Source: a virus
IMG/VR virus record: IMGVR_UViG_3300046804_005583
Span: 1-33,387 of that record
Strand: one strand, 5' to 3'
Length of the DNA stretch: 33,387 nt
A model generated the notes under the pieces. That model had not been told where the DNA came from. It saw only the letters and a program-made list of their open reading frames with translations, and searched no databases. The position numbers and the translations under genes are program-made. Shown here piece by piece: positions 2,007 through 16,386 of the stretch; within the stretch, counting starts at the first letter, position 1; the number at the start of each line of letters is the position of its first letter.

Positions 2007-3122
2007 ATGGCTACAAAAGAAGAACAAGACAGGCTAGCACAGCAAAAAGTGGAATTTAATAACTCTGCTGCTCGAGCTATAGCTGGAGAAAAACGTAATA
2101 ATCCTTATGATATTTCTATTGTTAAATTTCCTAGTGATCTAGGTGCTTCACCTGATCTATTACACTATGTTCAATTTTCTATTAATGTTAGAGGTAAGTC
2201 TAACTTTAATTATAAAAAGACAAATATTGTCGAGCAACGAGCAAGTAATGCGCAATTATCAGACGCAGAACTTTCAAGAGCTAAGCTTGCTGGAGAAGTA
2301 GCAGGAGGCGCAGCGGCAGGAATTGCTGTAACAGCCTTAGCTGATACTGTTAAAAAAAGTTTAAACGTCTCTGGAGGTGTGTCTAAGAAAGTATTAGATT
2401 TTTTAGGTAGTAAGACAACTGGTGTTATTACAACAGCAGCTGTAACAACAGCTATGGCCTCGGGTGATATTTTAGCTTCAGACAAATCTTCTAGAATATC
2501 CGATGTAATTGCTTTGCATGTAGATGGACCTCCTACGGTAAAATATGGAGCACAGTACTCTAATAAAGATCTTGGCTCTATGGCTTCCTTATTATCCGGG
2601 AGTGCGTTTGGTAGCCTTAAAGGCGCAAACGAAGCAGTTTCCGCAATTGGAATGCAATTCGCTAAATTACCCGGGGCATTAGGTGGTGGTGACTTAAGTT
2701 CAGCCATTGGTGCCTCAGCTAAAGTTGCATTAAATCCCTTTAAAGAAGTTATTTTCGAAGCAATTGATTTTAGGTCATTTGCTTTTAAATATAAATTTTT
2801 GCCTAAAAACAAAAAAGAGTCTGACAGTATTAAACGTATTATAAATTTGTTTAAGTTTCACATGCACCCAGAAGTTTCTTCCACTAAGTTATTTTTTATA
2901 TACCCCTCGGAATTTCAAATTACATATTTTTTTAAAGGCAAGACAAACGAATACTTTCACGCATTTAGACCTTGCGTATTAGAATCGATGGAGGTTGCTT
3001 ATGGAGGAGAACAATTCAGTTCTTTTAGGGATGGACAGCCTACTGAGGTAAACATGTCACTTGTGTTTAAAGAAACTGAAATTCTCACTAAAGAACTTAT
3101 TGGTGGAAGTGGAGTATACTAA
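2007..3122 (+). CDS. 48: gp48 baseplate tail-tube cap
   Basis: An in-frame TTG at 1995 adds four residues, but the ATG at 2007 (MATKEEQDRLAQQ) is the better start and gives 371 residues, close to T4 gp48 (364). gp48 caps the hub and, with gp54, starts the tail tube. The C-terminal third carries the tube-like signature: FKFHMHPEV, then a YPSEFQITYFFKGK segment, RPCVLESMEVAYGG, FSSFRDGQPTEVNMSLVFKE and a closing TKEL. Roughly residues 90-160 are unusually rich in Ala, Gly and Thr with hydrophobic runs. It is the first gene of the rightward operon and overlaps gp53 by one base (TAATG). Confidence 0.8.
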   Translation: MATKEEQDRLAQQKVEFNNSAARAIAGEKRNNPYDISIVKFPSDLGASPDLLHYVQFSINVRGKSNFNYKKTNIVEQRASNAQLSDAELSRAKLAGEVAGGAAAGIAVTALADTVKKSLNVSGGVSKKVLDFLGSKTTGVITTAAVTTAMASGDILASDKSSRISDVIALHVDGPPTVKYGAQYSNKDLGSMASLLSGSAFGSLKGANEAVSAIGMQFAKLPGALGGGDLSSAIGASAKVALNPFKEVIFEAIDFRSFAFKYKFLPKNKKESDSIKRIINLFKFHMHPEVSSTKLFFIYPSEFQITYFFKGKTNEYFHAFRPCVLESMEVAYGGEQFSSFRDGQPTEVNMSLVFKETEILTKELIGGSGVY

Positions 3123-3610
3123 TGTATTTCGAATATTTTCCTCCAACTTTATATACCCTAGATGATAAAACTACGGTAAACTTAGTTACTAATATTTTTT
3201 TACGAAATGTCATAAGTGAAGATGTGAAAAATAATTATAGTCTATACGATGAATATGATGTAATAGACGGTGAAACTCCTGAGATACTTTCTCAAAAGTT
3301 TTATAGGACACCTAAACTTCACTGGCTAATCTTACACTATAATGACATACTAGACCCAAGGTTTGATTGGCCGTTATCTACTTTCAATTTAATCAAATAT
3401 TGTCAGAGTAAGTATACAAATATTAATGCTACTCATCATTATATAAACTCAGATGGTTATATTGTAAACTCAACTGAGACAGGTGCTACACCTGTCTCTA
3501 ATTTTACTTACGAAGAAGAATTGAACGAGAAAAAAAGAAGAATAAAAATCTTAAAACCTACGTATGTAGATTCTTTTGTAAGAGAATTTGTTAATAAAAT
3601 CTCTCGATAA
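3122..3610 (+). CDS. 53: gp53 baseplate wedge protein
   Basis: A 162-residue protein with the hallmarks of the gp53 family. An N-terminal aromatic YFEYFPPTLYTLDD segment is followed by IFLRNVISEDVKNNYSLYDE, then a LysM-like stretch with DVIDGETPEILSQKFYRTP and LHWLILHYNDILDPRFDWPL. gp53 joins neighbouring wedges around the hub in T4 and is needed to close the hexagonal baseplate. The protein is somewhat shorter than T4 gp53 (196). It overlaps both neighbours by one base (TAATG at each end). A perfect 10-bp hairpin lies inside the gene at 3476-3498. Confidence 0.85.
   Translation: MYFEYFPPTLYTLDDKTTVNLVTNIFLRNVISEDVKNNYSLYDEYDVIDGETPEILSQKFYRTPKLHWLILHYNDILDPRFDWPLSTFNLIKYCQSKYTNINATHHYINSDGYIVNSTETGATPVSNFTYEEELNEKKRRIKILKPTYVDSFVREFVNKISR
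3476..3498 (+). other. perfect 10-bp inverted repeat inside gp53
   Basis: GAGACAGGTG at 3476-3485 pairs exactly with CACCTGTCTC at 3489-3498 around a three-base CTA loop, followed within five bases by a short T run. It has the shape of an intrinsic terminator but lies in coding sequence. Its function is not established. Confidence 0.45.
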
Positions 3611-4989
3611 TGGCTAATAACAATCCAGACAGCATTAATCGTGCTGGTGATGTAAGAATAGAAAAACTTGCTTTAATTTCTTCTGATAATAAAACTATTG
3701 ATTTATCAGAATTTTTAATTGAGCTTAATATTTACGAAGACATATTTAGTAACTATCTTCAAGGTAATATAGTTTTAACTGATAGTAGAAACTTAATTGA
3801 AAAACTTAACATTCATGGCGAAGAGGTCTTGCTTGTAAAAATTAGAACTCCATCTCTTGATGAAACAAGTGTCATAAAAAAGACATTTAGAACTTTTAAA
3901 ATTTCTGATAGAAAAATAGTAAGAGATAATAATACACAAAATTTTATTATACATTTTGTTTCCGCAGAACTTTATGTTGATGTTCTTCTACCATTATTTG
4001 TTTCATTTGAAGGTGATATAGACACTGTAGTAGAAAATATTTTTAATAATTATATTGCTACCAATACTCAATTCGAATTAAGTGAAGAAAAAAATAATGC
4101 TGATGTCAAACCAGATATTAGCCCGCTTATTATTTTAAATAGTTCTTCAAACAGAGTTAAATTTGTCTCTCCTGGATGGTCTCCGTTTAAATGTATAAAC
4201 TGGTTAGCTACTAAATCTATTCCTAAAGATGGTAATGCTAAAAACTTTTTATTTTTTGAATCTTCTAAGGCTTTTTATTTTGGTTCAATAGAATATATTT
4301 TAAAAAATGCTATAGAAACAAACAATATAATTGGAACTTACACAATCGCAGCTTCTAACCTAACCGGTAATGACAATAAGAAAGACTTAAGTAGAGAATA
4401 TTTTTTAGCTAAAGATGTGGAAATGGTAAATACCGTTGACCAAATACAAAATTTTACTAACGGGTTTTTAGCAAATAGATTATTATTTTTAGATATTCAT
4501 AATAAAATATATGATGTAATAGATTATGATTATGTAGAAGAATACAAGTCTCAGTACCATACCTCTGGTAAAGGTAGTGAATCGATACCACCGTTCTCAA
4601 CCAACTCATTGAGAAACTTTGCAACTAGTATAAGTTTTTATCCTAAAAATCCAAAATTATTTAATGATTTTACTGATAATGTAAATGAGAAAATGGATGT
4701 AATTTATGGTAATAGAAAGTCTAGTATGTTAGACTTAAGTAATATAAAAATGAACATTACTGTACCTGGTCGCACAGATATCGAAGTAGGTAGATTACTT
4801 TACTTTTTATATCCTTCACTAGGAGGTAAAGAAGAAGCAGATAAGAGTTTTGTTCAGCAAGATACTTTATACTCAGGTTATTATTTAATTACTGCTATTA
4901 ACCATAAAATTAATAGACATGAACATACTATGACTATGGAAATCGTTAAAGATTCTCTTAATGTAAATAATTTAAGTGCTAAAAAATAA
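3610..4989 (+). CDS. 27: gp27-like baseplate hub protein
   Basis: A 459-residue protein in the position expected for gp27, just before gp5. T4 gp27 (391 residues) is a trimeric ring that holds the gp5 spike. Visible features fit: an N-terminal segment with LSEFLIELNIYEDIFSNYLQ and GNIVLTDSRNLIEKLNIHGE, typical of the first hub barrel, and a C-terminal segment with VGRLLYFLYPSLGG, SGYYLITAINHKI and HEHTMTMEIVKDSL, which resembles the last barrel of gp27 and the gpD-type hub fold. The middle is Asn/Lys-rich and may hold insertions relative to T4. It overlaps gp53 and gp5 by one base each. The assignment rests on position plus terminal motifs. Confidence 0.78.
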   Translation: MANNNPDSINRAGDVRIEKLALISSDNKTIDLSEFLIELNIYEDIFSNYLQGNIVLTDSRNLIEKLNIHGEEVLLVKIRTPSLDETSVIKKTFRTFKISDRKIVRDNNTQNFIIHFVSAELYVDVLLPLFVSFEGDIDTVVENIFNNYIATNTQFELSEEKNNADVKPDISPLIILNSSSNRVKFVSPGWSPFKCINWLATKSIPKDGNAKNFLFFESSKAFYFGSIEYILKNAIETNNIIGTYTIAASNLTGNDNKKDLSREYFLAKDVEMVNTVDQIQNFTNGFLANRLLFLDIHNKIYDVIDYDYVEEYKSQYHTSGKGSESIPPFSTNSLRNFATSISFYPKNPKLFNDFTDNVNEKMDVIYGNRKSSMLDLSNIKMNITVPGRTDIEVGRLLYFLYPSLGGKEEADKSFVQQDTLYSGYYLITAINHKINRHEHTMTMEIVKDSLNVNNLSAKK

Positions 4990-6071
4990 TGCAAAGAATA
5001 TTTAACAAAGACGGGTTTAATTGGTGGATTGGTTGTGTTGAAGATAGAATGGACCCTGAAAAAATGGGTCGTTGCAAAGTAAGAATATTTGGCTACCATA
5101 CTGATAACAAGCAACTACTACCAACTAAAGACTTACCTTGGTGCGTACCTATTCAACCAATTACATCAGCTGCAATTTCGGGGGTAGGTTCATCACCTTT
5201 AGGTCCGGTAGAAGGAACTTGGGTTATAGGGTTCTTTTTAGATGGTGAAGATATGCAACAACCCGCTATGTTTGGAACCATAGCTACTAGATCATTAGGT
5301 GGGTTTGCAGGTATTGAAGAACCAGATACACTAACTAATCCTAATGATGGTATAGTTAGAGATCAGGGAGGTCGTCCTGTATTAGATGATCAAGGCAACC
5401 CGGTAAGATCTGGAACACCTGCTGTAGATGGATGGGAAATAGGTCAAACATCTGAATCGTTTGAATCCGGGGGACGTGGACCGGGTACTATAAATGCTTA
5501 TGCTAACTCCGGAGACACAGGAGGAGCATCTTATGGTACATATCAATTTGCATCTTATTTACCTCAAAGAAATCCAGTGACAGGCGCATCAAGACCATCC
5601 AGTAAAAATTCTCCTGTAATTCAATTTATTAATGGAAGTAAATTTAAAGAAATGTTTGCTGGATTAGAACCAGCGACTTCTGCTTTTGATAATAAGTGGA
5701 GAGAGGTGGCTAGTAAGTATCCTAAAGATTTTGAAAATGAGCAACATGAGTATGTAAGAAAAAATTATTATAATGTTATGGTAGCAAACTTACAGCGCCA
5801 AGGATTAAATTTATCTAATTACGGGCCTGGAGTACAAGATCTAATTTGGTCAACAGCTGTACAATTCGGTCCAGCTAGAACCGCTATATTTACTGAACCA
5901 TTAAAAGGTAAAAGTACATTAACAGATACTGATATAATTAATTTAGTAAGCGAATATAAAAAGAACAATGTTAACGTTTTCTTTAAATCTAGCGGAGCTT
6001 CTATACAAACAAGTCAACGTAATAGATACGCGTCTGAACAAGCAGCACTATTAAGGTTAGTTACAGCATGA
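4989..6071 (+). CDS. 5: gp5 N-terminal part: OB-fold plus lysozyme-like domain
   Basis: A 360-residue protein. Residues 1-105 match the T4 gp5 OB-fold: GCVEDRMDPEKMGRCKVRIFG, then LPWCVPIQPITSAAISGVG, SPLGPVEGTWVIGFFLDGED and a short FGT strand. Residues about 150-355 are not T4-lysozyme-like. They carry FESGGRGPG (candidate catalytic Glu159), GGASYGTYQFAS and DLIWSTAVQFGPA, which resemble the C-terminal muramidase domain of VgrG3-type spike proteins. The likely role is local cell-wall digestion during tail penetration. Unlike T4 gp5, the protein ends here and the beta-helical needle is a separate downstream gene overlapping by four bases (ATGA). The OB-fold call is firm; the hydrolase family is by resemblance. 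Confidence 0.85.
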   Translation: MQRIFNKDGFNWWIGCVEDRMDPEKMGRCKVRIFGYHTDNKQLLPTKDLPWCVPIQPITSAAISGVGSSPLGPVEGTWVIGFFLDGEDMQQPAMFGTIATRSLGGFAGIEEPDTLTNPNDGIVRDQGGRPVLDDQGNPVRSGTPAVDGWEIGQTSESFESGGRGPGTINAYANSGDTGGASYGTYQFASYLPQRNPVTGASRPSSKNSPVIQFINGSKFKEMFAGLEPATSAFDNKWREVASKYPKDFENEQHEYVRKNYYNVMVANLQRQGLNLSNYGPGVQDLIWSTAVQFGPARTAIFTEPLKGKSTLTDTDIINLVSEYKKNNVNVFFKSSGASIQTSQRNRYASEQAALLRLVTA

Positions 6072-8302
6072 AAGATATTTTATCACAGCAGATTAATGGT
6101 GCATTATCTAACGCGATTTTTAATCAAGTCAGAGGTTTAGGGGTAAATATACCTTCACCTTTATTACAACGAGTAGTATCTCAAGTTGCTGAAAGAGCAT
6201 CGATTTTAGTTTCGTCAAATGTAGTCTCTCAAACTAACTATAATTTAACAGACATACCAAAAAATTTATTAGGTAATAAAAACCCGGTTAATATGACTAC
6301 CAGTAATTTAGGTAGCACTGGTATTTCAAATAACCTAGGTAATTTATTACAAACTCAATTATCTAGTCAACTAACTAATCAAATAGTGGTTCTACTTCAA
6401 AGTGAATTAGCAAGTGTATTGCCAGCTAATTTATTAGGTATTATTAATGTTAATAATCTTGCTAATTCTTTTCTACAAGGGTTAACACCAACTATCAATA
6501 GCACGATAAATCAAACTTTAAACACAGTTTCACAAAATTTATTTAAATCTAAAAAACCATCTACTGAAGTACCAGCCGATCAAGGTCAGTATGGTAATAT
6601 TCAAGCTAGTAAGGCATTAGAAGCTGCTAGAAACTTTAATCCATTTGAAGGTGAAAATGCTCAAAAGCTAGAAGCTAATAATAAAGGGTTTAGAGATCCA
6701 AACGCTAATTACCCTAAAGTAGAATATAAAAACGAACCTGAAACAAATAAATTAGCTAGGGGTGATATTAAAGGTACTATCGTTCAAGAAAAAAATGACG
6801 ATAGAATGCTCGGTGCAAAATTGCCCGGTGGTTCTTCATGGGAACAACCTACTTCTCCGTATAAAGGAGAATACCCTTATAATAAAGTTACACAAACAGA
6901 ATCCGGTCACGTTATTGAAGTAGATGATACACCTGGTGCTGAAAGAGTTCACGTATACCATAAATCAGGAACATTTATTGAGATAGATTCTACAGGTAGC
7001 TTTGTAAAAAGATCAAAAGGTTCTTCTTACGAAATTGTAGATAGAAATGGTAAAATAGCTATTTCTGGTAAAGCAGACATATCAGTTAATGGTGCTTGTA
7101 ATATATTTGTAGGTAATGATGCTAATATTGAAGTAGAAGGTGATACTAATATTTTATGTCATAATGATATAACAGCCATGGCTGGTGGTAAATTAAATTT
7201 ATCAGCTGTTGAAGATGTTAATATTGCTGGTGGTAATGTACGTCTACAAGCATTTAATAATTTTGATATTACTTCCAATGTTAATTTAAACCTGCATACG
7301 GATAAGACTATTCATATGCATAGTAATACAGAGATTAAAGTGCAAGCAGAAGATTATTATAACAAATTATCTGGTAGTATGTTTAATCAAGCCGCTGGTG
7401 AATTTCACTTTAAATCTTCTGGTACATTTAATGTTGATGGTAGTGAGGCTTATATTAACTCCGGTAACTCTCAAGACTCTCAAGAAAGTAAAGTAGCTGG
7501 TGTTTCTCAAATAGGATTATTAACAGGTAAGTATGGTGTTAATGGTAGAAAAGATATCGTGGTGGTTGAGATAGATGATCCAGTTCCTTTAACTATAGCA
7601 GATAGAGATTCAACTATTTTAGATGAGCCCGGTGCAACTTCTTCTCAGTTAAAATCTCAACGTGATAAAAAGCTATTTAGTGGCTTTGCTACAGCTCAAG
7701 AAGTTGATTCAGTTCCACCAGAATTAGAAACCTTCTCTACATCATCTCAACAAAATAACTTCGTACCGGCTAATCCTGAATTGCTAAAAGCTACTTTATT
7801 GCCTGGTAACTTTAAACTATCTCCAAACTTTACGTTAGAGATGTTGTCTTCTAAAGCACCCGCATCTACTGGTAATTTCCTAAGAAACTTTACTGCCGGT
7901 GGTAAGACGTTTAGTTATGGAGAACTAGCATTTAACTTACAAGCAGTCGCTCTTAATATATGTGAACCCGTATTAAAGATCTACCCGGATATGTTCGTGA
8001 CTTCAGGGTTTAGAAATTACAATACTGGTGATGAAAGTAGATTATCTCAGCATGTTAAAGGCCAGGCTGTTGATATTCAGTTCCACGGTTTACCTAAGTC
8101 TAAGTATTTTGAACGAGCAAAAGAATTAGCTAAAGCATTAAAGTACGATCAATTTTTATTAGAGTATAAAACTGATGGTACGGGCATGCCCTGGATTCAT
8201 ATATCGTATGTTGACCCGGCATCTAAGGCTACTAATAGATCTCAAGTTTTAACTTTCTTTAATCATAAGACTAAAGGCCCTGGTTTAATTAGGCTAGCGT
8301 AA
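6068..8302 (+). CDS. gp5 C-terminal needle fused to an M15-type peptidase
   Basis: A 744-residue protein in three parts. Residues 1-165 are rich in Leu, Gln, Asn and Ser, look helical, and have no T4 counterpart. Residues about 258-465 match the T4 gp5 needle: SPYKGEYPYNKV, then ESGHVIEVDDTPGAERVHVY, GTFIEIDSTG, and repeated VxVxGxxNIxV-type strands ending in VDGSEAYINSG. Residues about 575-744 are an M15-type zinc peptidase with TSGFRN, SQHVKGQAVD (His662, Asp669) and WIHISY (His711), the expected three zinc ligands. The family cleaves D-Ala-containing peptidoglycan peptides. Marine T4-like phages have similar proteins annotated VrlC. The gene sits between gp5N and the PAAR tip. Confidence 0.85.
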   Translation: MKDILSQQINGALSNAIFNQVRGLGVNIPSPLLQRVVSQVAERASILVSSNVVSQTNYNLTDIPKNLLGNKNPVNMTTSNLGSTGISNNLGNLLQTQLSSQLTNQIVVLLQSELASVLPANLLGIINVNNLANSFLQGLTPTINSTINQTLNTVSQNLFKSKKPSTEVPADQGQYGNIQASKALEAARNFNPFEGENAQKLEANNKGFRDPNANYPKVEYKNEPETNKLARGDIKGTIVQEKNDDRMLGAKLPGGSSWEQPTSPYKGEYPYNKVTQTESGHVIEVDDTPGAERVHVYHKSGTFIEIDSTGSFVKRSKGSSYEIVDRNGKIAISGKADISVNGACNIFVGNDANIEVEGDTNILCHNDITAMAGGKLNLSAVEDVNIAGGNVRLQAFNNFDITSNVNLNLHTDKTIHMHSNTEIKVQAEDYYNKLSGSMFNQAAGEFHFKSSGTFNVDGSEAYINSGNSQDSQESKVAGVSQIGLLTGKYGVNGRKDIVVVEIDDPVPLTIADRDSTILDEPGATSSQLKSQRDKKLFSGFATAQEVDSVPPELETFSTSSQQNNFVPANPELLKATLLPGNFKLSPNFTLEMLSSKAPASTGNFLRNFTAGGKTFSYGELAFNLQAVALNICEPVLKIYPDMFVTSGFRNYNTGDESRLSQHVKGQAVDIQFHGLPKSKYFERAKELAKALKYDQFLLEYKTDGTGMPWIHISYVDPASKATNRSQVLTFFNHKTKGPGLIRLA

Positions 8303-8955
8303 TGGCAATTACAGGAGCTACTATATCAGGTGGGTTTTTAGATCCAGAGCTTTTAGGCACTGAACCTGCTGGCACAAATTTATATGCCGTTAATGAGTAT
8401 AGTGATTTTGTAGATAAAATTACAGTTACTTTAACAAATGAAGATCCTTTAGGTATGTCATACGGTAGCATACTTGATTTATCTGCTAATGTAACCGTAT
8501 ACGGAACCCCTATTACATCTAATGAGCTCACTAATAACGGTAATGTTTCTCTTAATGTTACTTATAATTCACCCAATACCTTCTCGGTTGTAGGGTTAAA
8601 TATATCTGTTACTAATAGCGGATCTCAAGGTAATATTTACATTACAGGTAATATTCAAAATGCATTTCCGGACAAATATTGGGAATATAAAGATTTTGTA
8701 ACTAAAGATAGTATTGTAGTCGATTCAACGTTTGATATACCTGACGAAGATGTTGCTCTTCATACGTATAAACCTTCCTTTATGAGATATATTAATATAC
8801 TATTTAATGTAGAAGTAGAATACGATACTGCAACAGTTTATAAAACAATTAAAAAGAAAGTTTATAATGATTGGGAGATAAATAGATTAGCAATGATAGC
8901 TCAGGTAGATAGAGAAGAAAACTACCGCTCTAATAACTATCCAAAGGATTACTAA
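8302..8955 (+). CDS. unidentified protein between needle and PAAR tip
   Basis: A 217-residue acidic, Asn/Tyr/Val-rich protein I do not recognise. The first 140 residues alternate hydrophobic and polar residues, like a beta sandwich (KITVTLTNEDPLG, NVSLNVTYNSPNTFSVVGLN, NIYITGNIQNAFPDKYWEY). The last 60 include FMRYINILFNVEVEYDTAT, a lysine cluster and an Arg/Asn-rich tail. No cysteines, signal peptide or membrane segment are visible. It overlaps both neighbours by one base, so it is translated with the needle and tip and is probably a spike or baseplate component. That role is inferred from position only. Confidence 0.6.
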   Translation: MAITGATISGGFLDPELLGTEPAGTNLYAVNEYSDFVDKITVTLTNEDPLGMSYGSILDLSANVTVYGTPITSNELTNNGNVSLNVTYNSPNTFSVVGLNISVTNSGSQGNIYITGNIQNAFPDKYWEYKDFVTKDSIVVDSTFDIPDEDVALHTYKPSFMRYINILFNVEVEYDTATVYKTIKKKVYNDWEINRLAMIAQVDREENYRSNNYPKDY

Positions 8956-9254
8956 TGGCAGCTGCATCAAGAAAAGGTGATTTAAGCGCTGGGCATGGTT
9001 GCTTTCCTCCTACAGCTTGTGTTAATTCATTAGCAACTAGAACATTTATTAATGGTATTCTAGCTCAAAAACAAGGGTCTAGTTTTAATTCTCATAGATG
9101 CGGTAAAACAACTCACCCTACGTCTTCTAGAACAACTTCTTCTGGATCAAGTACAGTGTATATAGAAGGTGCAAGGGCTGTTAGGATAGGCGATTCTATA
9201 TCTTGTGGAGATTCAGTTGCTCAAGGTTCACCTAACGTACAGATTGGTGGATAA
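8955..9254 (+). CDS. 5.4: PAAR-repeat spike tip (gp5.4-like)
   Basis: A 99-residue PAAR protein, the sharp cone on the end of the spike in T4 (gp5.4, 97 residues) and in type VI secretion. It shows GDLSAGHGCFPPTACV near the start, VYIEGARAVRIGDSISCGD in the second half and a closing GSPNVQIGG. His14, Cys16, Cys22, His47, Cys49, His54 and Cys84 are candidate metal ligands; PAAR tips bind one metal ion near the apex. It follows the needle gene and one unknown gene, and precedes gp25 by eight bases. Length and motif make this a confident call. Confidence 0.93.
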   Translation: MAAASRKGDLSAGHGCFPPTACVNSLATRTFINGILAQKQGSSFNSHRCGKTTHPTSSRTTSSGSSTVYIEGARAVRIGDSISCGDSVAQGSPNVQIGG

Positions 9255-9262
9255 ATAATAAA

Positions 9263-9664
9263 ATGGCAACTATAAACCGTAATACTAGACAGTTTACAGA
9301 TTTTAATCTTTTATTTACTGCTCACCCATCTACTAAAGATGTAACTTTAAAAACAGATGAGGATGCGGTAAAGGCATCCATTCGTAATTTAATTTCAACT
9401 AATAATTTTGAAAAACCATTTCACCCAGAAATTGGTTGTCAAATTTATGGATTATTGTTTGAAAATTTAAACCCGCTTACAGTTCAAATTATGAAACAAA
9501 CTGTGATAGATGTTATTGATAAATTTGAGCCTAGAGCTGTTATATTAGATGTCTTAATTAATGATAATGTAGATAAAAATTCAATAGACGTAGATGTTAT
9601 TTTTAGACTGGTTAATAGTGAAAAACCAGTATCTATTAAAACAGCAATCACAAGAGCAAGGTAA
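9263..9664 (+). CDS. 25: gp25 baseplate wedge protein
   Basis: A 133-residue protein (T4 gp25 is 132) of the gp25/TssE family. It has an N-terminal FTDFNLLFTAHP strand, EDAVKASIRNLISTN, the FHPEIGCQIYGLLFEN segment and the family-defining Glu-Pro-Arg at residues 89-91 (FEPRAV), followed by a beta-rich C-terminus. gp25 is part of the conserved wedge core with gp6, gp7 and gp53 and contacts the first sheath ring. Its ATG follows the PAAR gene by eight bases, and a NATAAATA box at 9250-9257 overlaps the PAAR stop codon. It overlaps gp6 by one base. Confidence 0.94.
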   Translation: MATINRNTRQFTDFNLLFTAHPSTKDVTLKTDEDAVKASIRNLISTNNFEKPFHPEIGCQIYGLLFENLNPLTVQIMKQTVIDVIDKFEPRAVILDVLINDNVDKNSIDVDVIFRLVNSEKPVSIKTAITRAR

Positions 9665-11511
9665 TGGCAAATTTAAGAATAGCTGAATTAGATTTTGATG
9701 CTATCAAAACTAATCTTAAAGAATATTTACAATCTCAAGATCAATTTACTGATTATGATTTTGAAGGATCGAGTTTATCTATTCTTTTAGATATCCTTGC
9801 TTATAACACTCATTACAACGCCTACTTAGCTAATATGGTAGTTAATGAGATGTTTTTAGATTCCGCTGTAAAAAGGTCTTCGGCTGTAAGCATAGCTAAG
9901 CATTTAGGTTATACTCCAACATCGGTGAGAGGTTCTACAGCCGTAGTTGACGTCACTGTAACCAGTCCTACCGGTAGTCCTACTTCTTTAACGTTAGATA
10001 GGTATACATCCTTTTCTACTACTATTGATGGTACTGCGTACAACTTCCTTACTTTAGACCCTGTTACAACTACACCAGTAGATGATGTCTATACTTTTAA
10101 TAATGTTACTGTAAAAGAAGGAACTTTATTACAATACTCATATACAGTAGTAACACCCGGCCCTGATGAAAAATATGAGATACCTAACTCCGATGTAGAT
10201 ATCTCAACCTTGTATGTAACCGTTCAGGCATCCACATCTGACACTACTACTACGGTGTATACTCGTACTACTGATATTACTGGGTTATCAAATACATCTG
10301 CGGTGTATTATATCGAAGAAAACGCAGCTGGTAACTATCAGATATATTTTGGAGATGGTGTACTAGGTCAAAAATTATCTGCAGGTAATATTGTAAAAAT
10401 ACAATACTTAGTCAGTGCAGGTGCTATAACTAATGTTTCTAATTTAATAGATCAAACCTTTGGCTTTAGCGGTTCTATCGGCGGGTCAAGTAATGTAGCT
10501 ATTACTGTAGCTAGTAACTCTACTGGTGGTGCAGATAGAGAATCTATTACATCAATTAAATTTAATGCATTAGGAAGCTATCAATCTAGAAATAGAGCGG
10601 TTACCAAAACTGATTATTCTAATTTAATTAAATCAGAATATCCTAGTGTAGAAGCAGTTTCAGTTTGGGGCGGGGAAGAAAACATTCCTCCTAATTATGG
10701 TAAGGTTTATATTTCATTAAAACCTTTTGAAGGCTTTACAGTTAACGCTGCTACTAAAGAAGCAATAAAGACAGAGCTTTTAGCTTCTAGATCTATGTTG
10801 ACCGTTAGTCCTGAATTTGTAGACCCTGATTACATTTATGTAAATTTATTAATTAATATAGAATACAATAAAAACCTAACTACTTTATCTGCATCTGGAA
10901 TTAGAGATTTAGCTCAGACTGCAGTGACTAATTATTTTAGTACAAATTTACAAAAATTTAATTTACCGTTTTATTATTCTCAGTTATTAAAAAACCTGAG
11001 TAATATTAATAGTTCTGTTTTAAACGTACTATCAGAAGTAAGAATACAAAAAAGAATAACTCCTATTTTAAATGTAGGTAATTCTTATGTTAGTGATACG
11101 GCTATTAATTTTAACAATAAACTTCATCCAAACGGTTTACAGTCTACAAGATTTTTTATTACTCAAGGCGATTTAACTGTACCGGTGAGAATGGCCGATC
11201 AACATTTACCGGTTGATTCCGCGCCTGACTATGACGGAACGGGTGAAATATATCTTTACAATCCAGATAATAATACCAGAATCGAAACTATAGGTACTAT
11301 TAATTATGGAACAGGTGAAGTAGTAATAAACAGTATTACACCAACCGGTTTTCCTTCTGGTGTGTTCGATATTAGGATAACATGTGAAGCACAAGAATCT
11401 AGCTATAATATTACATCAGCTAGAAATCAAATTATAGTATTAGATGATAGTACTGAAAGTTCTAGTACTAATCGTATAGCTGGTTTAACTATTACTGCTA
11501 CACCTGTGTAA
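9664..11511 (+). CDS. 6: gp6 baseplate wedge protein (J-like)
   Basis: A 615-residue protein (T4 gp6 is 660). Diagnostic segments at the N-terminus are FEGSSLSILLDILAYNTHYN, YLANMVVNEMFLDSAVKRSS and a following AKHLGYTP. Later come YFGDGVLGQKLSAGN and the baseplate_J-like block around SYQSRNRAVTKTDYSNLI, EYPSVEAVSVWGGEENIPP and YGKVYISLKP. gp6 dimers form the ring that ties the wedges together and surrounds the hub. The C-terminal 120 residues are beta-rich and resemble cyanophage gp6 versions. It is coupled by TAATG overlaps to gp25 and the next gene, and the order gp25-gp6-gp7-gp8 is the usual one in marine relatives. Confidence 0.92.
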   Translation: MANLRIAELDFDAIKTNLKEYLQSQDQFTDYDFEGSSLSILLDILAYNTHYNAYLANMVVNEMFLDSAVKRSSAVSIAKHLGYTPTSVRGSTAVVDVTVTSPTGSPTSLTLDRYTSFSTTIDGTAYNFLTLDPVTTTPVDDVYTFNNVTVKEGTLLQYSYTVVTPGPDEKYEIPNSDVDISTLYVTVQASTSDTTTTVYTRTTDITGLSNTSAVYYIEENAAGNYQIYFGDGVLGQKLSAGNIVKIQYLVSAGAITNVSNLIDQTFGFSGSIGGSSNVAITVASNSTGGADRESITSIKFNALGSYQSRNRAVTKTDYSNLIKSEYPSVEAVSVWGGEENIPPNYGKVYISLKPFEGFTVNAATKEAIKTELLASRSMLTVSPEFVDPDYIYVNLLINIEYNKNLTTLSASGIRDLAQTAVTNYFSTNLQKFNLPFYYSQLLKNLSNINSSVLNVLSEVRIQKRITPILNVGNSYVSDTAINFNNKLHPNGLQSTRFFITQGDLTVPVRMADQHLPVDSAPDYDGTGEIYLYNPDNNTRIETIGTINYGTGEVVINSITPTGFPSGVFDIRITCEAQESSYNITSARNQIIVLDDSTESSSTNRIAGLTITATPV

Positions 11512-13797: not shown

Positions 13798-16386
13798 ATG
13801 ACTTCAACATCGCTAGTAAAAACGCAATTACATAATAGTATTGCGGATTCAGTTTACAAAGAAATTTCTTCGAGAACTGGACGCTATTATTATTTTCTAG
13901 GAAAAGCTATTGAATGGACTGACGAGAATAATCCTCCAGTGCCTATTGATAGTTTTAACTATGAAAAAGATACTAGAAAAAATATTATTATAGTCAAAGA
14001 AATTTTGCCTAGCGATGTAGCTTTTGTTATCGATAGAAAAGACTGGAAATCAGGCACGGTCTATGATATGTATGATGACAGTTATAGCACTGAGATAATA
14101 GGATTAAACCTTATTGCAGGTGGGTCCAATTACACTAGTAATGCTAACATTACTATTTCCGGTGGCGGTGGGTCTGGTGCTACTGGGAATGTAATTGTTG
14201 TAGATGGAGCTATAACAGGAGTAAACTTACTAACTAATGGTTCAGGCTTCACTACTAAGCCTAATGTTATTATTTCTCATGTTAGTGGTACGGGTGGTAA
14301 TATAGAAGCTGTGATTGGTTACGCTTATTCAGGTGTTTCCACACTGCAAGCAGCCAACTTTTACGTTGTAACCGATCAGTTTAACATTTACAAGTGTTTA
14401 GATAATAACAATAACGCACAGTCAACTGTTAAACCAACAGAAACTACCACTGAAGCTTTTAAAACTTCCGATGGTTATAAATGGAAGTTTATGGGTAATG
14501 TACCTATCTTCCTAAGAAATAAATTTCTATCCCCTACTTTTGTCCCTGTAACTACTTCAGTAAATTCTAATTTTTATTCCAAGGGTGAAATTAGATCAGT
14601 TAATATTTTAGATACTGGTAGTGGGTATACGTATGCAAGAATTGTTGTTCAAGGGGATGGTTATCTAGAGGATGAGCCGTATCTTATAAAAAATGTTAAT
14701 ATTAATTATTCCGGTGTTGGCTACTCTAGCGCAAACGTCGTAATTGATCCTCCAGTAACTGCTTCTGCAACATGGGCTGCTAATACAGCTTACACCGTTG
14801 GTAAAATATTATCTCACCAAAAGAATTATTATGAGGTTGTTTTAGCAGGAACCTCAGCTTCTTATGGTCCTTTACATACAGTTGGAACTAAACAAAACGG
14901 AAATGTGGGGTTAAAATTTAGAGGTACAGTTGCTACAGCTAATGTTTCTCTTATTAGTAATGGTTTAATTAGCGCTGTAATGTTAGATGGTGCTGGTATT
15001 AGAGATATTGTTATTACTAAAGGCGGGTCGGGTTATATAGATGCCCCTACTATTACCTTAACCGGGGGCGGTGGTGTAAACGCTGCAGGTTATGTAAATT
15101 TAGTGGATAATACAGTAAGAAGAATTATTATTACTGATAGTGGTACCAATTATTCTACTGCACCTAATGTAGTAATTGGCGACGAATGGACCGCCAATAC
15201 TTTCTTTGATATTAATGATCAAGTTTTTTATTTAACTAATTTATATACAATTACTTCAAACGGTTATAGTAATACCACTGCCCCTACTCATACCACGGGC
15301 TCACGTACTTTAGGTAATGCTATATTTACTTACGCTGGTGCAAAAGCAACTGCATACGCTAGGTTAAAATATGGTGCAGGTTATACCGCTGCTCCTCTTG
15401 CAAACATTGTAGGGGACAATGGTGGTAATCAGGCGGGTAATGCAAATATTTCCGTTGAAGTTGAAAAAACTGAAGCTATTTTAATTCCCTATATTGATCA
15501 GGGTGGAAGAATAACTAGAGTTAATATTGAAAACGGTGGCACGGGGTATACATACGGAACGTTAACTGTAGTTGGAGATGGCGCTAACGCTTCTCTACAA
15601 TTAAATCTTTCTCAAGGTGACTTAGAGTCTCTACAATCATTAAGTGAACTTCAAGCCGTACCCGGTGCAATTCATACTGTACAAGTCGTATCTAGAGGTT
15701 ATAATTACTCTAATGCTAATGTATCTATTTCGGGTGATGGTACCGGCGCTACAGCAAACGCAACGATAGTGTCAGGTAGAATTACTAAAATAAATATGAT
15801 TAATGAGGGGTCAGGTTATACTTACGCAACTGTAACTATAACCGGGTCTGGTAAAGGTGCTAGTGCAAGAGCTATTCTACCCCCTTATAATGGACATGGT
15901 AAAGATACTATAAATGAATTATATGCTAGAAACTTAGGTTTTTATTCTACTATTAATCAAGAAGAAAATCAAGGTTTTATAGTTACTAATGATTACCGTC
16001 AGTTTGGTATCATAAAAGATATTAGAAATCTTAATAATTCAAAATACTTTAATGGTGGTACAGGTTCTGCTTGCTATTTAATTTCAGGGTCTGTTAACCC
16101 CAATATTTTTGCTGAAGATACTATAGTAAGAAGAGCGTCTGATAATACAGCTTTTGTAGTTATTTCTTCTTCTAACAATGCTATTTTAGTTAGCTCTTTA
16201 GATGAGACAACTCCAATTATTGGAGATACTATATCAGTCTCTACAGGTAATAGTTTTGTAGTCACCGGAGTAACTAATCCTGACGTTGATAAATATTCCG
16301 GCGAACTTCTTTACTTAGACAATAGACGAGCATTCACTACAACAGAAGATCAATCAGTTTCTTTAAATACAGTAATTAGATTCTAA
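13798..16386 (+). CDS. 8: gp8 baseplate wedge protein with large repeat insertion
   Basis: An 862-residue protein against 334 for T4 gp8, yet both ends match T4. Residues 1-95 include the VIDRKDW motif (T4 VIPRRDW). Residues about 185-235 include FNIYKCLDNN, TVKPTE and DGYKWKFMGNVP (T4 YRCLD, TIEP, DGYVWEYLFEIP). The extreme C-terminus, KYSGELLYLDNRRAFTTTED, matches T4 HSGEMIYMENR. Between these lie repeats of the form V-x-I-x-x-x-GSGYT-x-A-x-V-x-I-x-GxGxGAxA. gp8 forms dimers on the wedge in T4; the inserted repeats probably add an outward beta-rich domain. It is preceded by the stop codon of the small structural gene with a one-base gap (TAATATG). Confidence 0.85.
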   Translation: MTSTSLVKTQLHNSIADSVYKEISSRTGRYYYFLGKAIEWTDENNPPVPIDSFNYEKDTRKNIIIVKEILPSDVAFVIDRKDWKSGTVYDMYDDSYSTEIIGLNLIAGGSNYTSNANITISGGGGSGATGNVIVVDGAITGVNLLTNGSGFTTKPNVIISHVSGTGGNIEAVIGYAYSGVSTLQAANFYVVTDQFNIYKCLDNNNNAQSTVKPTETTTEAFKTSDGYKWKFMGNVPIFLRNKFLSPTFVPVTTSVNSNFYSKGEIRSVNILDTGSGYTYARIVVQGDGYLEDEPYLIKNVNINYSGVGYSSANVVIDPPVTASATWAANTAYTVGKILSHQKNYYEVVLAGTSASYGPLHTVGTKQNGNVGLKFRGTVATANVSLISNGLISAVMLDGAGIRDIVITKGGSGYIDAPTITLTGGGGVNAAGYVNLVDNTVRRIIITDSGTNYSTAPNVVIGDEWTANTFFDINDQVFYLTNLYTITSNGYSNTTAPTHTTGSRTLGNAIFTYAGAKATAYARLKYGAGYTAAPLANIVGDNGGNQAGNANISVEVEKTEAILIPYIDQGGRITRVNIENGGTGYTYGTLTVVGDGANASLQLNLSQGDLESLQSLSELQAVPGAIHTVQVVSRGYNYSNANVSISGDGTGATANATIVSGRITKINMINEGSGYTYATVTITGSGKGASARAILPPYNGHGKDTINELYARNLGFYSTINQEENQGFIVTNDYRQFGIIKDIRNLNNSKYFNGGTGSACYLISGSVNPNIFAEDTIVRRASDNTAFVVISSSNNAILVSSLDETTPIIGDTISVSTGNSFVVTGVTNPDVDKYSGELLYLDNRRAFTTTEDQSVSLNTVIRF
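14095..15875 (+). repeat. GSGY-type amino-acid repeats in gp8
   Basis: About nine imperfect copies of a 35-60 residue unit with cores such as NGSGFTTKPNVIISHVSG, TGSGYTYARIVVQGDG, GGSGYIDAPTITLTGGGG, SGTNYSTAPNVVIG, YGAGYTAAP, GGTGYTYGTLTVVGDG and EGSGYTYATVTITGSG. Copies are diverged at the DNA level, so the repeat is old or under selection for variation. The first copies lie inside the T4-like N-terminal region and the rest after residue 260. Confidence 0.75.

Follow-up and report, generated by a model that had tools for sequence, protein, structure and literature searches.

In T4 the central spike protein gp5 is made from one gene and processed by a protease, and the locus described here raises the question of whether two adjacent genes of an uncultured phage, which between them hold the parts of gp5, encode the products of that cleavage or a spike divided in another way. 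The window, that is, the whole stretch of DNA analysed, corresponds to IMGVR_UViG_3300046804_005583, and its 33,387 bases are the entire virus record. The pair is surrounded by T4-type baseplate genes (tail-tube cap, gp53, tail protein, PAAR, gp25, gp6 and more wedge genes) in the order gp53, tail protein, gp5 pair, PAAR, gp25 and gp6. The features are located as follows.

3122..3610, forward strand: gp53-like baseplate wedge gene (Pfam Phage_gp53, 2.3e-10)
3610..4989, forward strand: tail protein immediately 5' of chain A, candidate hub in the gp27 position (PHROG 350, 3.5e-73)
4989..6071, forward strand: chain A gene, 360 aa, gp5 OB core and VgrG3-like muramidase (ORF, profile and PDB matches, 33-sequence alignment)
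4989..5303, forward strand: gp5 OB core, A residues 1-105 (Pfam Gp5_OB, 8.5e-17; T4 gp5, 7.9e-23)
5424..6068, forward strand: VgrG3-like muramidase domain, A residues 146-360 (PF21277, 5.4e-52; PDB 4noo/4nso by sequence and fold)
6068..6071, forward strand: ATGA overlap, start of chain B and stop of chain A (ORF coordinates, junction survey)
6068..8302, forward strand: chain B gene, 744 aa, helical domain, GFxDP, needle and M15 (ORF, profile matches, 33-sequence alignment)
6068..6562, forward strand: new N-terminal helical domain, B residues 1-165 (AF2 helices, pLDDT mostly 65-83, a weaker stretch at residues 64-80)
6662..6817, forward strand: GFxDP segment, B residues 199-250 (clade profile; T4 gp5 counterpart at residues 112-136, ahead of the lysozyme)
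6836..7507, forward strand: gp5 needle, triple-stranded beta-helix region, B residues 257-480 (T4 gp5, 1.5e-17; PHROG 430, 2.7e-55; Foldseek 1k28)
7778..8299, forward strand: C-terminal M15-type peptidase, B residues 571-744 (motif S660-x-H662, D669, W709-x-H711; PHROG 894 endolysin, 6.5e-16)
8955..9254, forward strand: PAAR tip protein gene (Pfam PAAR_motif, 3.7e-08)
9263..9664, forward strand: gp25-like baseplate wedge gene (Pfam GPW_gp25, 4.9e-11)
9664..11511, forward strand: gp6-like baseplate wedge gene (Pfam Gp6-like_1st, 2.4e-21; PHROG 219, 1.3e-167)

The tail protein in the gp27 position (3610..4989) found no sequence match in the PDB, and its sequence gives no tie to gp27. Chain A begins as a gp5 protein, its OB part aligning to residues 6-148 of T4 gp5 in a PDB search (E 7.9e-23). 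The preliminary description had placed OB fold and lysozyme-like hydrolase on one chain and the needle on the other, a layout that is correct, but the hydrolase does not belong to the T4 lysozyme (GH24) family. That family was ruled out, since PF21277 is the sole hydrolase profile on chain A and is located before GFxDP; T4 gp5 itself, as a control, matches Phage_lysozyme at 1.3e-12. A Foldseek search with the muramidase fold retrieved 4nso and 4noo (TM 0.84 and 0.83 by target length) and then GH46 chitosanases. Glu159 and Asp176 are invariant in 56 of 56 relatives, and the GH46-like fold suggests that they form the catalytic acidic pair. Among the closest known systems is Vibrio cholerae VgrG3 (4noo/4nso), likewise a spike protein, whose C-terminal domain is a muramidase homologous to that of the window, with 42% identity over 211 columns of the structural alignment. 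VgrG3, however, is a fused T6SS protein with the muramidase at its end, whereas the muramidase of the window follows the OB core in a phage spike that is split. Because it comes from an unrelated family and is located on the other side of GFxDP from the T4 lysozyme, the VgrG3-like muramidase was acquired separately from it.

Chain B was described as the needle chain, and the needle is indeed present: the stretches SPYKGEYPYNKV and ESGHVIEVDDTPGAERVHVY, by which it had been recognised, align to T4 gp5 from residue 376 on (PDB 1k28, E 1.5e-17), the whole match covering T4 residues 376-576. Besides the needle, however, the chain has a new domain at its N-terminus, then GFxDP, and a peptidase at its C-terminus. 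The helical domain, of about 165 residues, gave no confident match in Pfam or PHROGs. Outside the split clade none was found with a search pattern derived from that clade, which distant copies could escape; a broader alignment gave no usable conserved stretch, hence the clade-derived pattern. The domain is always located on the needle side of the split and was seen on split chain B only. At the other end of the chain, the zinc motif of M15 peptidases, SxHxxGxAxD plus WxH, is complete (Ser660, His662, Gly665, Asp669, Trp709 and His711) in 46 of 46 relatives, while the Pfam Peptidase_M15_3 match (E 0.0011) scores 19.6 bits, below the curated cutoff of 23.2. The AF2 monomer of chain A is poor over the OB part and that of chain B is moderate in quality, so that neither gives a basis for statements on interfaces.

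A needle-profile scan and classification of the contigs found recovered many single-gene spikes. Two of them, L121 (1095 aa) and L122 (874 aa), carry OB, muramidase, GFxDP, needle and M15 in one ORF, Pfam confirms both the OB core and the muramidase in each, and both align full-length with A plus B, the helical domain excepted. Between muramidase and GFxDP they have about 55-65 residues, where the window has a stop, a new start and the helical domain. In an unrooted tree of OB core plus needle, built on 92 dereplicated rows, the window clade comprises 26 rows, all of them split (SH-aLRT 95), and is sister to fused L121 and L122 at 99; the surrounding family, T4 included, is mostly fused. Every clade member seen is thus split and none fused, and the single fused genes found next to the clade, which the preliminary description had named as counter-evidence, would make the split derived, not false. 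Since most relatives are fused and the fused L121 and L122 are sister to the all-split clade, fission rather than fusion would be the simplest reading, by parsimony on this unrooted tree. Conservation along the two chains is uneven, the mean pairwise identity within the clade being 0.85 in the OB core, 0.76 at the needle start, 0.44 in the helical domain and 0.38 in the stalk before M15.

The pair probably encodes the central spike of a T4-like contractile phage, that is, the equivalent of gp5, produced by fission of a modular gp5 gene and assembled non-covalently; as such it varies a spike that is already known and adds no new kind. We infer its direction of change, assembly, stoichiometry, enzyme activities and the role of its helical domain along the following lines. 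An ancestral single chain with the order OB, muramidase, GFxDP, needle and M15, persisting in L121 and L122, would have broken within the variable region that separates OB from GFxDP. Chain A would sit with its OB core on the hub as in T4, bearing the muramidase, and the helical domain of chain B would take the place of the linker found in the fused relatives. The assembly would comprise three copies each of A and B with no covalent link between them, the needle being a trimer of B capped by the PAAR protein. Upon contraction the needle would pierce the outer membrane, the M15 peptidase would cut peptide cross-links and the muramidase would cut the glycan. Being on a chain of its own, the needle could depart with no need of a maturation protease. 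In T4 the lysozyme activity of trimeric gp5 with its needle is only 10% of that of monomeric gp5*, and it returns once the needle is lost (PMC3004832); with separate genes the needle could be lost in the same manner but with no proteolysis. Of the parts of the two chains, the helical domain is the best candidate for keeping A and B together. A more specific proposal, made here tentatively and rather doubtful as yet, is that it works as a docking module which replaces the covalent linker and releases the needle on impact, giving a two-enzyme spike with no maturation protease.

The same domain could be read in another manner. It is a new domain with no assigned function, and it diverges strongly within the clade (mean pairwise identity 0.44); M15 modules, moreover, move between proteins, for instance onto PAAR or into a separate gene. 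Chain B might hence be tethered by its helical domain to the hub or to another baseplate protein, in which case A and B would be two tail enzymes, each with its own mounting, and would not form a single spike. We regard this as unlikely, since B retains GFxDP and the needle start, which follow the OB core in the fused relatives, and since A and B are adjacent throughout the clade.

Comparison with T4 bears on the remaining question, namely whether the genes replace a proteolytic step, as had been claimed. T4 gp5 shares with the pair a homologous OB core, GFxDP and triple beta-helix needle; gp53, PAAR (gp5.4) and gp6 are neighbours in both, and in both two chains are expected in the mature spike. 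T4 reaches them with one gene and a protease, the window with two genes. Profiles built on the clade were run on the window, on T4 and on 15 other reference proteins, and gave the order OB, muramidase, break, helical domain, GFxDP, needle and M15 for the window, and OB 6-91, GFxDP 112-136 and needle from 376 for T4 gp5. The T4 lysozyme domain comprises residues 174-339 (PMC7650644) and the cleavage site is Ser351/Ala352 (PMC3004832). The break of the window, between OB core and GFxDP, is thus placed by the profiles on the opposite side of GFxDP from the T4 cut. Whereas T4 has its GH24 lysozyme between GFxDP and needle and keeps GFxDP on gp5*, the window has its VgrG3-like muramidase before GFxDP and keeps GFxDP on the needle chain; it has, unlike T4, the helical domain and an M15 peptidase after the needle, and the lysozyme-needle linker that is cut in T4 is absent from it. 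Other reference spikes vary at the same positions. Mosig, D479 and EniLVp02 run OB, GFxDP and needle with no hydrolase in between, and gp5 of Synechococcus phage BUCT-ZZ01 (ON615601) resembles the window in having a hydrolase between OB and GFxDP and a C-terminal M15, although it is a single gene and its hydrolase is a GH19. In the phage collection no record covers 80% of chain A or of chain B. Among open-access papers, most matches being judged by title or abstract and subscription papers lying outside the scope, none was found to describe a split gp5.

Splits are nevertheless present in other lineages. Genes 154 and 155 of Methylophilales phage Melnitz-3 (MZ577098) break as in the window between OB and GFxDP, with a 1-base overlap and an M15 ending the needle chain; in contrast to the window, chain A carries a VanY-type peptidase (Pfam match below cutoff) in place of a muramidase, chain B has no helical domain, and the phage is distant from the window clade in the tree. 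Their annotations read 'OB domain protein' and 'baseplate hub subunit/tail lysozyme', and the main text of the paper is silent on the split (PMC9004378). In the group of L159, L177, L183 and L184 an OB chain, with GH19 in L159 and L177, is separated from needle chains of about 1,690-1,940 aa, and these needle chains hold more than 1,100 unassigned residues ahead of GFxDP. In L128 and L161 the OB core stands alone and the second chain has about 400 aa of no known kind, the needle and M15. In L157 the OB core and an unassigned part are separated by an in-frame stop and a new ATG from GH19, needle and M15, and L180 is another split spike. Topology tests rejected a single origin for all splits (AU p 0.0009) and the joining of the window clade with L157 (AU p 0.001), but accepted a common split of the window clade and the L159 group (p 0.34) or of the window clade and L128 and L161 (p 0.30). 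At least two independent splits would follow from these tests, and the tree as found implies six changes. The splits do not, as a rule, reproduce the products of T4, the hydrolase of L157 being on the needle chain.

With OB core and hydrolase on chain A and the needle on chain B, the pair resembles T4 gp5 after cleavage, and the genes were accordingly described as direct counterparts of gp5* and gp5C that replace T4 proteolysis at the same place, translational coupling keeping their ratio at 1:1. The first part of this description fails at the break: chains A and B do not correspond to gp5* and gp5C, because the T4 cut follows GFxDP and the lysozyme and the break of the window precedes GFxDP. 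Moreover, the hydrolases come from unrelated families on opposite sides of GFxDP, chain B has a new N-terminal domain and a peptidase, and L157 couples its hydrolase to the needle instead. The likeness to cleaved T4 gp5, an OB chain with hydrolase plus a separate needle, is one of analogy only. As for coupling, overlaps of 1-4 bases are present at 8 of the 12 operon junctions from 1995 to 22909 of the window, including those into the gp53-, PAAR- and gp6-like genes. The T4 counterparts of these operon genes differ in copy number. As most operon junctions overlap in this way, the ATGA is ordinary gene packing and gives no specific evidence for a 1:1 output, although the two genes may be coupled. 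Hence, that the pair reproduces the T4 products in equal amounts is distinctly improbable.

The two ORFs themselves are real. The overlapping genes (4989-6071 and 6068-8302) are located where the preliminary description had put them, joined by the four-base ATGA, and homologues of A and B are separate ORFs in dozens of contigs, from 94% to about 40% identity; the contigs closest to the window, one at 94% and the other at 92-94% identity, show this split too. A survey of IMG/VR gave 52 distinct A/B junctions, with a 1-base overlap in 23, a 4-base overlap in 22 and a 1-base gap in four, which places chain B in a different frame relative to chain A; the remaining three are interrupted or alternatively started B ORFs. 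The split is thus clean at 49 of the 52, in three arrangements. A slippery heptamer lies within the overlap at one of the 52. A sequencing frameshift or assembly error was ruled out by the three arrangements across dozens of contigs, and a programmed frameshift by the finding of neither a conserved slippery site nor a constant frame. Although chain B of the window is in the -1 frame relative to chain A and its frame is open for 31 bases upstream of the B ATG, an artefact, or a frameshift that still gave a fused chain, is hardly credible given two relative frames, a near lack of slippery sites and a conserved N-terminal domain of B that begins at B's own ATG. The split is a well supported, real, inherited and clade-wide gene architecture in uncultured T4-like phages. 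In L034, L042, L065 and L067 chain B is interrupted, by sequencing error or decay.

In T4-type spikes the OB ring and the needle can accordingly be parted at the gene level, more than once and within one modular region, which unrelated wall hydrolases fill according to lineage: GH24, GH19, VgrG3-like muramidase, Phage_lysozyme2 and VanY-type peptidase. The fused and split sisters with the same muramidase, L121 and L122 against the window clade, would allow a direct test of what linkage or cleavage contributes to spike assembly and needle release, a test unavailable from T4 alone.

The position of the M15 enzyme varies as well. In Vibrio phage 1.244.A (L099:5088-6077) an M15-type domain follows a PAAR domain, confirmed by Pfam, in a single protein, and in Vibrio phage 207E48.1 (L100:5095-6081) an M15-type domain is found in the gene corresponding to that PAAR-M15 gene, which suggests the spike tip as the proper place of this enzyme, no matter what protein bears it. 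Sinorhizobium phage phiN3 (L107:5257-6819) has a separate 520-aa M15 gene directly 3' of a gp5 without M15. A fused gp5 at L125:7665-10193 shows a weak CHAP match and has a GH19 after the needle, and Pseudomonas phage Astolliot (L109:3674-4945) has an intact gp5 ORF that is unannotated in the public record. In the window, positions 8302-8955, between needle gene and PAAR, encode a 217-aa protein with no family assigned; in Vibrio phages D479 and EniLVp02 that slot, immediately 3' of gp5, is occupied by a hypothetical protein of about 160 aa. Further downstream, the product of 13798-16386 has a weak gp8-like match, just below the Pfam cutoff, and a weak match to the carbohydrate-binding module CBM_5_12 at residues 325-353.
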